NCBI GenBank assembly: GCA_903922605.1 | Contig: CAIXUG010000022.1 | Location: 1 to 64,000, forward strand | Source of the DNA: an uncultured Verrucomicrobiota bacterium | GTDB taxonomy: Bacteria; Verrucomicrobiota; Verrucomicrobiia; Limisphaerales; UBA9464 | Length of the DNA stretch: 64,000 bases | Reading direction: 5' to 3' | Part shown: positions 155-55,140 of the stretch, piece after piece | Position numbering within the stretch: position 1 is the first letter of the stretch | How the letters are laid out: each line of letters opens with the position of its first letter | Position numbers and translations under genes: made by a program | The notes under the pieces: model-generated | What the model was told of the DNA's origin: nothing | Databases searched by the model: none | What the model saw: the letters and a program-made list of their open reading frames with translations, nothing else

Positions 155-3100
155 TCAGCTGAGCAGCTCCTGGATCTCATCCCAGCTCAGTGATTCGGTG
201 AAGGCCTCCTCACCGGTCAGCGTCGCCGCGATGATCTCCCGCTTCTTTCGCTGCAGGTTCAGGATCTTCTCCTCGACCGTGCCGCGCGTAATGAGCTTGT
301 AGTTCGTCACCACACGCGTCTGGCCGATACGGTGGGCACGATCCGTCGCCTGGTCCTCCACCGCCGGATTCCACCACGGGTCGAAGTGGATGACCGTGTC
401 CGCCCCGGTGAGATTGAGGCCGACACCGCCGGCTTTCAGCGAGATGAGGAACACCGGCACCTTATCGTCGCCCTGGAATCGTTCGACCACCGCTCCACGG
501 TCCTTGGTGGAACCGTCGAGGTAGCAATGATCCAGTTCCCGCGCCGCCAGCTCCTCACGGAGCAGCGCCAGCATCGAGGTGAACTGGCTGAACACGAGCA
601 CGCGATGGCCGCCATCGACGATCTCGTCAAGCAGTTCGCCGAAGAACTGGAGCTTCCCTGAAGTAGGACGGGCGTCTCGCCCGTCTTCCATATTTGCCTT
701 CTCAGGCCCCACGCTTCCTGGCGCCGAAGCGAGATCAGAAGACGGGCGGGCCGCCCGTCCTACTTCGGGCTTGAGCAATCGCAGATCACAGCAAACCTGC
801 CGCAGCCGCAGCAGCGCCGTGAGCACGAGCATCCGGCTCTTGGCGAGACCTTGTTCGCCGACCGACTCCAGCACCTCCTTGCGCGTGTGGCTGAGCAGCT
901 GTTTGTAAACCGCCGCCTGCTCGTCGGTGAGCTCGCACCAGGCGATCTGTTCGAGTTTTGCGGGCAGATCCTTGGCCACGTCACGTTTGAGGCGGCGCAG
1001 CAGGAAGGGTTTCACGCGTTTCGCCAGCCGGGCGATGCTCGCGGCGTCCTTCTCCTTGGTGATCGGCAGCTCGTAGCGCTCGCGGAAATCCTGCGCGGTG
1101 CCCAGATACCCGGGCATGAGGAAGTCGTAGAGACTCCACAGATCGAGCACGGAGTTTTCCAGCGGCGTGCCCGTGAGCACGAGCCGGTGCGCCGAACGGA
1201 TCGACTTCACGGCGACCGCGTTCTGCGTCTGACGGTTCTTGATATGCTGCGCCTCGTCCAAAACGACCGTGTCAAATTCCAGCCCGCGATACCGCTCCGC
1301 ATCGCGCCGGATCAGCGCATAGCTGGTGATGACCAGGTCGCTCTGTGGGATGCGCCCGAAGTCCGCATGCCGGTCCGGACCGCTCAGCGCGAGCACCCGC
1401 AGCTCCGGCGTGAACTTCGCTGCTTCCGCCGCCCAATTGAACACCAGCGACGTGGGGCAGATGACCAGTGAGGGTGACGTGGCGTTGCGCTTTTGGGGAC
1501 CGCCTGCGCTTCCCAGGACAAACTTGAAATGCGTCAGCACCTGCAGCGTCTTGCCGAGGCCCATCTCATCCGCGAGCACGCCGCCGAAGCGGTTGTCGCG
1601 GAGAAAGCGCAGCCACGCGACGCCGTGCTTCTGGTAGGGCCGCAGCACCGCGTCAAGACTGCCGAGCGGCGGGCACACCAGCTTCGCCTCGCCCGTCTGC
1701 TGCCGGACTTGTTCACGCCACTGTGGCGGCGCGCCGACCGTGAAACCCTGCTCCTGCAGCGTCGCATCGAGAAAGCCCGCCTGTTCCGTGCCCATGCGGT
1801 AGCGCGTGACGCCGAGGTCGGCCGCGCCCGTGCGCTGCTGCGGCGCGCAGTCGAGCAGCACCTCCTGCAGCTCCTCGACGGCACCGGAGTCGATCAGCGC
1901 AAACTTGCCGTTGCGCAACTTGCGACCGCCGCCGCGCAGCAATTGCTGGATGTCCGCCGCGCTGAACCGCTCCCCCTCGCCCGACTTGAAGCCCACCTCC
2001 AGATCAAACCACTGCTCCCCGCTCGGCAGCACCCGGAACTCCGGCGTGATCCGCTCAAAATTCTTCTCCGTGCTGCGCTCCAGCCGTTCCTCGAGTGCCA
2101 CCTGCCACTCGCGCTCCAGTCGGGGAAACTCGCGCGCAAAAAACGCGATAACCTGGTCCTGCCCCGTGAGCTGCCACTGGCCCTGGGAATTTGGTCCCGT
2201 GAATCCGGCCGCCCGCAGCCGCATATACGCCTTGTGCTCCGAACCCAGGTCGCGCGTGGAATAGCGGCGCGGATTCGCCGGGTCGGGCAGCCACGCCGAC
2301 TCCTCCTTCGCGGTCACGCCGACCGTCATGATGCGCGGCCCGTACGCGCACTGGAGCGTGCCGGAGAGCTGGGCCAGCCCGCCGGCGAGATTGAGGATGA
2401 ACTTCGGCGCCTGCGGCGAGAGCTGGAAATCCTCGAGCCGGAAGTTGCACTCCACCGGACTCACCGCCGCGAGTCGCGGCCAGTCCTGGGACAGAAACTG
2501 TGGCACCTGCGTGCGCGGCAGCCGGATCTCCCGTTGCAGCACCTCGCGAAACTGCGGGGCCAGCGCCAGCGGCGCCAGCGTAGGACGGGCGTCCCGTCCG
2601 TCTTCCATACTTGTCTTTTCAGGCCGCGTGCCCACTGACGCAGAAGAGAGATTAGATGACGGGCGGGACGCCCGTCCTACTTCGGTGAGCGCCCAAGCGT
2701 TTGTCCCGTCGCTGAAGACTTGCGGCACCTTGATCCCGGGCTTGAGCCACAGTGTGATTTCGCCGGTGTCCTCCAATGCCGCGCGGAGGGGCAGGGGAGC
2801 AGGATCGCGCGAGACATTGAGCGGCTGGTCGCGCCCGATGGTCAGGCGTGGATGCCCGGCCAGGTGCGGCAGCAGCGCGATGAAATCCTTCGCCGGGAGC
2901 TGCATCATCCCCGGCGTGTCGCCGCCGGCGGCGAGTTCCGCCGCGTCGAGCAGCCGCTCGTCCTCGGGCGCGAGCGCAAATGGGCCGGCCTTCACCAAGG
3001 CATTCAGCGGCCCGCGTCCGCGCCGTGTCGTGCCTTCAAAAACCAGCATCGCCCGTCCCCGCGCCATCGACTCCGCGAGATTCGGTGGAAAGATCACGCT

Positions 3101-3598
3101 GATCGACAGGGGTTCACCGCGATCCGAGCGGCCGAGCTTCACTGGATCACGAGACGCAGCCGGTGTCGGTGCTACCGGTCGCCCGGTAGCGAGCCCGGTC
3201 GGTCGGCCCGTCTTTGCCTCCGCCTCCACCTTGCCTCGGTTCAGATGATGGAGCCCCACGGCGACCGAGTGGGCGCAGATCGTGCCATCCTCGCGCGCCG
3301 CGCGGCAGGTGCAGATGTTCTCGACGTCAAAGCTGCTGTTGATGACCAGTCCCGCGCGATAGCTCGTCTCTCCGGCCTGTACGACGCCCTTCAGCAGGGG
3401 CGGAGTCCAGTTCGACGACAGCACCTTGCCCGCGCTGAGCAGGGCACGGGCGTGCTGCACGGCTTCCCAGCCGGCCGTCTTCTGGAAAAACGCATCATTG
3501 AGCAGAACTTCAGGCACGGGACGGCCAGCGTAGGAAACACCGCGCCCCAACATCAAAGCCCAAAGCGCTGGAATGATGGAACCGGGTTGAGGCGGCAC
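155..3598 (-). CDS. SNF2-family DEAD/DEAH helicase with SWIM zinc finger
   Basis: This 1147-residue protein is a superfamily 2 DNA translocase of the bacterial SNF2/RapA-like group with an N-terminal SWIM zinc finger, probably acting in DNA repair or chromatin-like remodelling in the cytoplasm. The SWIM motif is C96-x-C98-x9-C108-x-H110. A large middle region precedes the motor, which has LADEMGLGKT (Walker A, about residue 680), LDEAQH (about 780), LTGTPLENS and, near the C-terminus, DRAHRIGQ. Three linker stretches are encoded by repeat sequences rather than family sequence: about residues 136-142, 305-340 and 944-979. The first ATG-proximal residues align well enough with the SWIM region to accept the annotated start. 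It is transcribed divergently from the gene at 3808. Confidence 0.93.
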   Translation of the reverse strand: MPPQPGSIIPALWALMLGRGVSYAGRPVPEVLLNDAFFQKTAGWEAVQHARALLSAGKVLSSNWTPPLLKGVVQAGETSYRAGLVINSSFDVENICTCRAAREDGTICAHSVAVGLHHLNRGKVEAEAKTGRPTGLATGRPVAPTPAASRDPVKLGRSDRGEPLSISVIFPPNLAESMARGRAMLVFEGTTRRGRGPLNALVKAGPFALAPEDERLLDAAELAAGGDTPGMMQLPAKDFIALLPHLAGHPRLTIGRDQPLNVSRDPAPLPLRAALEDTGEITLWLKPGIKVPQVFSDGTNAWALTEVGRASRPSSNLSSASVGTRPEKTSMEDGRDARPTLAPLALAPQFREVLQREIRLPRTQVPQFLSQDWPRLAAVSPVECNFRLEDFQLSPQAPKFILNLAGGLAQLSGTLQCAYGPRIMTVGVTAKEESAWLPDPANPRRYSTRDLGSEHKAYMRLRAAGFTGPNSQGQWQLTGQDQVIAFFAREFPRLEREWQVALEERLERSTEKNFERITPEFRVLPSGEQWFDLEVGFKSGEGERFSAADIQQLLRGGGRKLRNGKFALIDSGAVEELQEVLLDCAPQQRTGAADLGVTRYRMGTEQAGFLDATLQEQGFTVGAPPQWREQVRQQTGEAKLVCPPLGSLDAVLRPYQKHGVAWLRFLRDNRFGGVLADEMGLGKTLQVLTHFKFVLGSAGGPQKRNATSPSLVICPTSLVFNWAAEAAKFTPELRVLALSGPDRHADFGRIPQSDLVITSYALIRRDAERYRGLEFDTVVLDEAQHIKNRQTQNAVAVKSIRSAHRLVLTGTPLENSVLDLWSLYDFLMPGYLGTAQDFRERYELPITKEKDAASIARLAKRVKPFLLRRLKRDVAKDLPAKLEQIAWCELTDEQAAVYKQLLSHTRKEVLESVGEQGLAKSRMLVLTALLRLRQVCCDLRLLKPEVGRAARPSSDLASAPGSVGPEKANMEDGRDARPTSGKLQFFGELLDEIVDGGHRVLVFSQFTSMLALLREELAARELDHCYLDGSTKDRGAVVERFQGDDKVPVFLISLKAGGVGLNLTGADTVIHFDPWWNPAVEDQATDRAHRIGQTRVVTNYKLITRGTVEEKILNLQRKKREIIAATLTGEEAFTESLSWDEIQELLS
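660..766. repeat. Palindromic element inserted in frame in the SNF2 gene, copy 1
   Basis: The element has terminal inverted repeats of 23 bp: GTAGGACGGGCGTC... at the left and ...GACGCC-like CCCGTCCTAC at the right, matching at about 21 of 23 positions. On the minus strand it encodes VGRAARPSS...EDGRDARPT, 34 residues with no stop codon. It separates two blocks conserved in SNF2 helicases (RQVCCDLRLL and KLQFFGELLDEI). Confidence 0.88.
2580..2683. repeat. Palindromic element inserted in frame in the SNF2 gene, copy 2
   Basis: This is the same element as 660-766, with the same orientation and same reading frame. It encodes VGRASRPSS...EDGRDARPT, also 34 residues. The terminal 23 bp match as inverted repeats at about 22 of 23 positions. 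The internal part is more divergent than the ends and the frame is kept. Confidence 0.88.
3172..3189. repeat. Short perfect palindrome in the SNF2 linker
   Basis: CTACCGG-TCGC-CCGGTAG forms a 7-bp perfect stem. With the following CGGTCGGTCGGCCCGTC it encodes the low-complexity GRPTGLATGRPVAP stretch just after the SWIM finger. It is probably a second kind of inserted repeat. Confidence 0.55.
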
Positions 3599-52549: not shown

Positions 52550-52939
52550 GTGCCGATCTTCTACGAGTGCGACCGCTGCACAGCCTGCTGCCGCTGGCCG
52601 GGGCAGGTGATGCTTGCCGCCGGGGAGACGGCCCGGCTCGCGGCTTTTCTGGGAATGGCGGAGGACGACTTCATCCAGCGGTTTACGCGGATCAATGCCG
52701 CTCGGAATGGGCTCGCGCTAGTGGATCAGCCCAACGGTGCCTGCATTTTCCTCGAGGGTGACGACTGCCGGGTGAACCCGGTAAAGCCGCAACAGTGCCT
52801 CGACTTTCCGAACCTGTGGAATTTCCCCGGCTTCGAGCGGGTCTGCCGGGCCAGGCCGCAGGAGGTCTCGGTCGACGAATGGAAACTCCGCGTGAAACAG
52901 GCGACCGGACGGGATCCCTTAACCACTGATCAACACTGA
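52550..52939 (+). CDS. YkgJ-family cysteine cluster protein
   Basis: The 129-residue protein begins with GTG 52550 (VPIFYECDRCTACCRWPGQV; an upstream GTG at 52490 is possible). Its cysteine set C-xx-C-xx-CC, CIFLEGDDCRVNPVKPQQCLDFP and a late Cys match the YkgJ/UPF0153 zinc- or iron-binding family. The last residues PLTTDQH are encoded by the CACTGATC repeat that follows, so the original C-terminus probably ended earlier. Confidence 0.8.
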   Translation: MPIFYECDRCTACCRWPGQVMLAAGETARLAAFLGMAEDDFIQRFTRINAARNGLALVDQPNGACIFLEGDDCRVNPVKPQQCLDFPNLWNFPGFERVCRARPQEVSVDEWKLRVKQATGRDPLTTDQH

Positions 52940-53004
52940 TCTGCGCTAATAAATGGGGTTTCTTCCCCGATATTATCCGTGCCCATCAGTGTAAATCAGT
53001 GGTT
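52921..53004. repeat. CACTGATC inverted repeat, copy 1
   Basis: The left arm AACCACTGATCAACACTGAT (52921-52940) pairs with the right arm 52985-53004 at 18 of 20 positions. It lies between the convergent ykgJ-like and ABC-F genes, so it could act as a bidirectional terminator. The left arm encodes the last residues of ykgJ. Confidence 0.8.
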
Positions 53005-55055: not shown

Positions 55056-55140
55056 AACCGCTGATCCGCACTGATCCGCACTAATTTAAAAAGTCATCGA
55101 AAGCCGATTTATCAGTGCAGATCAGTGTGGATTAGTGGTT
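55056..55140. repeat. CACTGATC inverted repeat, copy 2
   Basis: The left arm AACCGCTGATCCGCACTGAT continues to CCGCACTAAT (55056-55085). The right arm is 55111-55140, matching at about 25 of 30 positions. It lies on the upstream side of the ABC-F gene, opposite copy 1, with a 25-nt AT-rich loop. Confidence 0.8.

Follow-up and report, generated by a model that had tools for sequence, protein, structure and literature searches.

The helicase gene and its two elements

The window, a 64,000-nucleotide stretch at the start of contig CAIXUG010000022.1 of an uncultured Verrucomicrobiota bacterium, begins with a gene for an SNF2-family helicase into whose reading frame two palindromic elements are built. 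The genome to which it belongs (G000) comprises 5.3 Mb in 90 contigs. The features of the locus are as follows.

155..3598, minus strand: SNF2-family helicase gene, host of both elements; stop-free frame of 1147 aa with Pfam domains SNF2-rel_dom, Helicase_C and SNF2_assoc
663..763, no strand assigned: REPIN copy 1, at site C; a spacer enclosed by inverted arms of 23 nt that carry the GTAG tag; relatives found by genome-wide DNA search
662..766, minus strand: coding stretch for residues 945-979, the site C peptide; missing in the sister species G004 and the other aligned orthologs
2580..2680, no strand assigned: REPIN copy 2 (site A); GTAG-tagged arms, hairpin; G004 has a copy too
2579..2680, minus strand: coding stretch for residues 307-340, the site A peptide
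1469..1528, minus strand: site B loop, lying between helicase motif I and LVICPTS, element-free here; from the alignment of 30 sequences

The initial annotation had described two palindromic elements inserted in frame in one helicase gene, in the same phase and orientation and with no stop in either copy, and direct alignment together with the open 1147-aa minus-strand frame bears this out. Its boundaries, 660-766 and 2580-2683, contract to cores of 663-763 and 2580-2680, 101 nt apiece; the shared 23-bp inverted ends are present but imperfect, with 21/23 and 22/23 positions in agreement; and the 34 residues assigned to each copy hold for 2580-2680 (residues 307-340), whereas 663-763 encodes 35 (945-979). 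Direct alignment of 661-766 with 2580-2683 (87 identities, 17 mismatches, 2 gaps) is better than the inverse alignment (79 identities, 18 mismatches, 16 gaps), so that a shared orientation is meaningful even for elements this close to palindromic.

The sequence GTAGGACGGGCGNC, allowing up to 2 mismatches, matches at nine positions in the window, the exact matches being the four arms only; shuffled controls average 3.4 matches and reach nine in none of 100. All four arms start with GTAGGACGGGCG, which places a GTAG tag at the foot of each palindrome, and each element folds as a single strand into one long hairpin (z -7.0 for 663-763 and -7.9 for 2580-2680, with none of 200 shuffles as good). 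Chance palindromes were considered and ruled out by the arm-match and hairpin-folding shuffles. Both elements are head-to-head, GTAG-tagged REP doublets (REPINs) read in frame. Elsewhere in the window, two 25-nt repeats lie head to tail at 54-103, the very start of the contig, and are 88% alike, and a pair of 42-nt inverted repeats, 86% complementary, lies 2.1 kb apart at 52921-52962 and 55099-55140.

Elements of this kind are already in print. Di Nocera et al. (2013; PMC3733652) describe in-frame REP doublets in genes, including double insertions in uvrA of Opitutus terrae; like those of the window, the dimers of that Verrucomicrobium are GTAG inverted doublets in frame, sometimes two per gene, each encoding 20-30 residues, and a position in linkers is argued for. 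The same paper discusses intragenic REPs, which it argues sit in linkers, together with the Rickettsia elements. The parallel with Rickettsia palindromic elements drawn in the initial annotation holds for behaviour, both being selfish palindromes in frame in many genes, and does not extend to membership: PMC3733652 places the Rickettsia REPs among CGTC-tagged families, apparently with no dedicated transposase, whereas the ends in the window carry GTAG, the tag of REPs linked to a REP-associated tyrosine transposase (RAYT).

A dispersed family in the same genome

The element had been expected to recur elsewhere in the genome, and it is not unique to the window: BLAST with one element recovers a dispersed palindromic family at 28 places in G000 at E 0.05 or better. 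Exact GTAGGACGGGCG arms number 22 (9 + 13), and a reversed-pattern control gives 7 (6 + 1). Four of the 28 places (C49, C64, C83:8379 and C3) represent a second, related REP type; such a type is seen at L054 3421-3514 and at L076-L079, where GTAGGTCGGGCCGCTGGCCCGAC stands beside GTAGGACGGGCTGCCAGCCCGTC, often as a close pair. Among full-looking dispersed copies, 13/18 measure 99-117 nt, and the copy at 663-763 is 84% identical across the whole element to a copy on contig C58.

Five of 30 inspected places, both window copies included, fall in domain-supported frames (the rest are not all proven intergenic); with so few intragenic copies, a filter for frame is no more than plausible. The other three intragenic copies lie in a DUF7133/GSDH protein (L057), a B12/radical-SAM DUF4080 protein (L059) and a cyclopropane-synthase-like methyltransferase (L064). 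Four of the five share one phase and L064 is in another; the third phase is closed because GTAG itself supplies a TAG stop. Left uncounted were L067, in which the element precedes the domain, and L081, a 21-nt match at E 0.49. A single REP between lipoyl and KAS III domains in a 1187-aa frame (L066) may be a sixth intragenic case, or alternatively two genes read together. In G000 itself no RAYT accompanied by REPs of the window family came to light; a search there with the guest profile described below gave one weak match (E 9e-23). The sister species G004 does have a RAYT of this REP family, and it lies inside the SNF2 gene.

The SNF2 loops among relatives

Thirty SNF2 sequences were aligned, that of G000 included and that of G003 a fragment, and three loops, sites A, B and C, vary in length among them. 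The suggestion that insertion sites are filtered for surface linkers agrees with this variation and with the disorder in which the 663-763 peptide is modelled. In a model of the SNF2 core (6 sequences, guest left out, mean pLDDT 77), pLDDT drops below 50 at residues 326-352 of the site C peptide and at residues 75-81 of the site B loop, which in G000 is short and lies between motif I and LVICPTS. Aligned to SNF2 structure 1z63, site C falls near residue 315, in the segment that joins the two helicase lobes.

Site A holds a REPIN both in G000 and in G004 (uncultured Verrucomicrobia bacterium Umea2_bin-2232), and site C holds one in G000 alone. At the latter G004 has an unrelated 15-residue loop opposite 661-766, so the loop was replaced or trimmed for a net gain of about 20 codons, and the clean addition of 34 codons first envisaged does not stand. 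No target duplication or exact empty site for the window elements was definable among the aligned SNF2 loops, which are too variable. Residues expected to be missing from orthologs are indeed absent from G004 in the case of the 663-763 peptide and present there in the case of the 2580-2680 peptide. Occurrence of the same peptides in SNF2 orthologs of distant lineages, which the initial annotation would have taken to speak against insertion, was not seen in that form, but the 2580-2680 peptide is shared with the sister species and other REP peptides fill the same loops in another genus.

Site B, element-free in the window, is occupied in relatives. G004 has about 800 extra in-frame bases there, consisting of a RAYT of about 190 aa with a REP on either side, of the same GTAGGACGGGCG family, so that SNF2 and RAYT together form a single 1438-aa frame with no stop; this RAYT is the only guest-profile match in G004 at E 1e-15. 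In G014, from another genus, a different REP family occupies sites A, B and C, and another RAYT (57% identical) lies at B in a 1466-aa frame. Its congener G020 has nothing at any of the three sites. The different RAYT and REP families of G004 and G014 indicate that two pairs reached the same loop.

RAYTs inside tRNA synthetases

A third RAYT lies in frame in alaS of G000 itself (C61:113905-117465), a frame of 1186 aa with the domains tRNA-synt_2c, Y1_Tnp, tRNA_SAD and DHHA1 and the single alaS match found in that genome. In most of 38 relatives the alaS match breaks from about residues 464-482 to 696-710 with no insert. Among the genomes seen, the G000 site is shared by G028 alone; a related RAYT occupies a second site, close to position 355 in G000 numbering, in G025, G032 and G036 (the G032 alaS being in pieces on contig ends). 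Placed on human AlaRS, the G000 insert falls between residues 420 and 424. Likewise, the guest-bearing LeuRS is the only full LeuRS match in each of four carrier genomes, which may be incomplete.

To judge from its sequence, L353 (G032 C64) is probably one more synthetase host: its 821-aa frame has a threonyl-tRNA synthetase-like start and matches the AlaRS guest RAYT at 58%. Two further observations touch on alaS. A longer REPIN of the window family (L063; G000 C61:113632-113809, 178 nt) lies about 95 nt before the RAYT-bearing open frame, and a 796-aa frame in G004 (L349; C20:34944-35057) has a 63% match to the linker after the G000 alaS guest (query residues 679-716), perhaps a repeat common to that frame and the guest.

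Spread and host range

A profile built from three guests, as RAYTs resident in host frames are called here, was run against 293 genomes belonging to the order and matched at E 1e-15 in 129. Rows of at least 200 bits numbered 41, of which 32, counted by eye, lie in stop-free frames of at least 400 aa; these include 3 query sequences and two C-terminal fusions. A scan of named genomes confirmed at least 504 relatives, of which the best 80 were kept, and among the matches listed long-frame cases occur in Verrucomicrobiota, Kiritimatiellota, Planctomycetota, Bacteroidota, Ignavibacteriota, Chlorobiota, Chloroflexota, Lentisphaerota, Pseudomonadota and Methylomirabilota.

The two sources together yield 138 RAYTs with intact frames, classed by frame as 74 guests, 50 free and 14 other. 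All rows of at least 200 bits were taken, followed by hand-picked rows, nine for their long frames and others as free examples, and the best 80 of at least 504 relatives supplied 78 of the total; the sample was thus chosen through guests, and 74/138, or 74 guests to 50 free, is no frequency. The guest count refers to RAYTs in the sense frame of the host. In free RAYTs the stop follows the domain by a median of 13 aa (0-57, n=50), and guests read on for a median of 389 aa (n=74); they are not stand-alone genes with a stop of their own, being open into host sequence, and 51/74 guest frames close within the contig at both ends.

In Pfam scans of 60 long frames, tallied by eye, the RAYT stands between host domains or splits a single one in 33; a further 22 have host domains to one side of it (counting L300, whose domain match overlaps the RAYT), and 5 have none. 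The hosts include SNF2, AlaRS, LeuRS, ValRS, DnaE, PriA, a DinG-type helicase, ClpB, CarB, the CCA-adding enzyme, exonuclease VII, a UDPGP-like enzyme, HsdR (in two places), Eco57I- and MmeI-type methylases, a NOV_C helicase, a radical-SAM protein, an oxidoreductase and others; in a cyclase and a proline racemase the RAYT is at the C-terminus instead. Two RAYT-bearing frames (L201 and L267) match the CRISPR-associated family Cas_NE0113, and a Cas_NE0113/adenosine deaminase frame stands in the host list.

The breadth of this list bears on the idea that the inserts have been co-opted, RAYT and REP peptides being useful to the host for DNA contact or control, for example. Many hosts do act on DNA, and a change of activity in repair genes that took up REPs has been raised as a speculation (PMC3733652). 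CarB, tRNA synthetases, the CCA enzyme and an oxidoreductase fit such a role poorly, however, as does patchy presence among close relatives, and co-option is accordingly given only a slim chance.

Insertion sites and flanking repeats

Junctions recur at the same points of the host proteins. By eye, and with flanks within contigs, they agree in 7/7 DinG frames (after TSATL[AG]T), 4/4 LeuRS, 4/4 CarB, 6/6 HsdR N-parts, 3/3 CCA enzymes, 5/5 UDPGP-like enzymes and 2/2 ClpB. Three hosts have two sites, PriA with 3 and, at the second, 2, DnaE with 4 and 1, and ValRS with 2 and 1 (again by eye), and in nine methylases the junction lies, also by eye, between YMVDESL-like and DPACGSG-like motifs. The recurrent junctions fall in short loops of solved host structures, with breaks at 364-376 in LeuRS, 480-501 in CarB, 882-885 in DnaE and 225-233 in PriA.

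Inverted REP-like repeats flank 60/65 guests, which score above all of 30 shuffles, and likewise 44/50 free RAYTs and 12/12 of the others, in a test that omits 9 of the 74 guests and 2 of the 14 others with less than 150 nt of flank. Free RAYTs being likewise flanked, such repeats are no mark of guests. The REP peptides at the junctions differ from host to host.

At one and the same point of a DUF4080 radical-SAM protein, G000 has a REPIN and the isolate Pontiellaceae bacterium B12227 a whole RAYT. This coincidence, together with REPINs and whole RAYTs in equivalent SNF2 loops, would fit another origin for the window REPINs, namely that they are remnants of in-frame RAYT guests whose transposase was deleted between the REPs and not transposed REPINs; a double-foot REP could come from the central deletion of a dimer (PMC6006769). 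The window copies nevertheless match the dispersed copies in size, and the whole-element identity between the 663-763 and C58 copies is what REPIN transposition predicts. An origin as remnants thus retains a minor though appreciable share of the probability.

The resident enzyme and its inheritance

The HUH and Tyr residues are invariant in the 25/25 guests aligned. By pattern, HUH is present in 73/74 guests and 50/50 free RAYTs and the Tyr motif in 67/74 and 46/50, respectively. The G004 guest, modelled at pLDDT 88.9, has the E. coli RAYT 4er8 as its best fold match (E 3.7e-6, TMq 0.49), and 4er8 is also the best match in a profile search (E 6.7e-6). On sequence grounds, the guests are active-looking transposases. 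Their NHVH, WQ and YIxxNP signatures resemble, by motif, TnpAREP subclass 2.4, which likewise has in-frame REPs inside the RAYT; the median length there is 194 aa, as against the long guest frames here (PMC6006769). Four guest RAYTs (L222, L227, L229 and L230) appear to have an in-frame interruption that separates the HUH part from the Tyr part, an arrangement described for subclass 2.4 (PMC6006769).

Ratios of dN to dS, which are rough in that several dS values exceed 1, range from 0.04 to 0.27 in guest RAYTs (14 pairs), from 0.03 to 0.25 in host flanks, apart from one badly aligned stretch (0.63), and from 0.06 to 0.33 in free or C-terminal RAYTs. Judged by these substitution ratios, RAYT and host both show purifying selection, even in tRNA synthetase hosts found as a single copy.

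On a RAYT tree from a quick search with SH-aLRT support only, omitting four broken-frame RAYTs, the AlaRS guest L063 and L246 (a duplicate of L137), the guest label requires 24 changes, as against 45.9 in shuffles. The host label, over 52 labelled rows, requires 12 changes for 11 hosts and at least 35 in 200 shuffles, and every host gene thus has its own guest lineage.

This result weighs on the most conservative reading, that there are only ordinary intragenic REPINs, random insertions weeded by selection, and that each RAYT case is a separate fusion or an accident of annotation. Precedent exists in REP dimers already described within genes, for which neutrality in linkers is argued (PMC3733652), and the survey in PMC6006769, which describes in-frame REPs within the transposase gene, discarded a few unexpectedly long RAYT proteins as gene fusions or annotation errors. 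Unrelated proteins whose host domains are split around a RAYT, at the same points across genera, are not what such accidents would leave, however; guest lineages track the host gene; and the frames used here were read from DNA, independently of annotation. This reading is largely refuted and is now most improbable.

Whether guests move between alleles was approached through 98 same-host pairs, in which guest and host identity were compared as a test of homing. The RAYT is more than 5 points more alike than both flanks in 20; in 62 it is the host that is more alike, as mostly outside the methylases, and 16 pairs are intermediate. All 20 are methylases, the only hosts with a signal; for L272 and L275, dS is 0.14 for the RAYT and 1.4-1.5 for the host. 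Methylase RAYTs that are more alike than their hosts indicate transfer of the guest, at an unchanged site, from one host gene to another that is diverged from it, and the 62 pairs with the opposite pattern fit long residence with losses as well as homing.

Resident RAYTs and known mobile elements

The favoured explanation, considered probable, is that the window REPINs are the small form of a wider life style in which whole RAYTs with their REPs reside in frame in host loops. It builds on frames, sites, residues, selection and the copy number of two hosts, all established in this analysis. GTAG palindrome doublets would be cut and joined as single strands by a RAYT, an HUH enzyme; that TnpAREP cleaves REP single strands at CT or CA in vitro is established (PMC8266576). 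The REPINs of the SNF2 loops stand in a stop-free phase and may, after entry, have been translated as tolerated linkers. Stopless RAYT genes with flanking REPs stand in host loops such that host, transposase and host share one open frame, and the chimera would be made as one protein in which an extra folded domain is tolerated. The resident RAYT may act in trans on REPINs elsewhere, and the needed host reading frame would shield it, because neither a frameshift nor a stop nor a ragged deletion would leave the host intact. Many hosts are dispensable (SNF2, DinG, restriction-modification enzymes), and this counts against the explanation.

Inteins are in-frame residents of conserved proteins, with one lineage per insertion site and patchy occurrence, and the guests resemble them in residence, in a site-bound lineage and in patchiness. 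They differ in that a splicing domain was not found and that an HUH transposase with REP hairpins takes the place of the homing endonuclease. Inteins also occupy similar proteins, which lends some credit to the possibility that the guest is removed before the host works, by an unrecognised form of protein splicing or cleavage or by precise DNA excision in some cells. Inteins of dnaE are known (PMC4853749), and the ends of RAYTs are REP hairpins that the enzyme cuts in vitro (PMC8266576). Pfam scans of the 60 long frames, though, contain no Hint or intein family, the junction REP peptides vary by host, unlike a conserved splice junction, and the loops of the window gene were replaced and not cleanly split, which speaks against routine precise excision there. 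Removal is therefore rather unlikely.

Returning to residence as an internal domain, REPINs and RAYTs as described (PMC3116915, PMC2817692, PMC8266576) share with the present elements the doublet hairpins, the HUH/Tyr transposase with inverted REPs and the 4er8 fold; they are chiefly extragenic, the RAYT being a gene of its own with a stop, whereas here they lie in host frames. The portions of PMC3733652 on REPs in genes and REP-flanked RAYT genes name no whole in-frame RAYT, and the open-licence PMC literature, as far as its text was accessible, yielded no account of a complete RAYT living in frame within a host gene. The resident RAYTs therefore appear to be new, and partly intein-like, the defining splicing domain not having been found.

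More broadly, the chances are about even that they form an intein-like class of element that does not splice, in which HUH transposases with hairpin ends occupy constant positions in loops of defence and essential proteins, become an internal domain of the host upon translation, with one lineage per host site, enter new alleles of that site, seed short in-frame REPINs like the window pair and escape decay by way of the needed frame.

How RAYTs and REPs are maintained in genomes over the long term is an open question, and an answer can now be tested, namely that the transposase is part of a needed protein. If this is true, proteins would have a route for acquiring internal domains and disordered linkers, and unrecognised transposases would reside in the synthetases, replication proteins and restriction enzymes of several phyla. 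Finally, resident RAYTs point to natural insertion-tolerant sites in essential enzymes.
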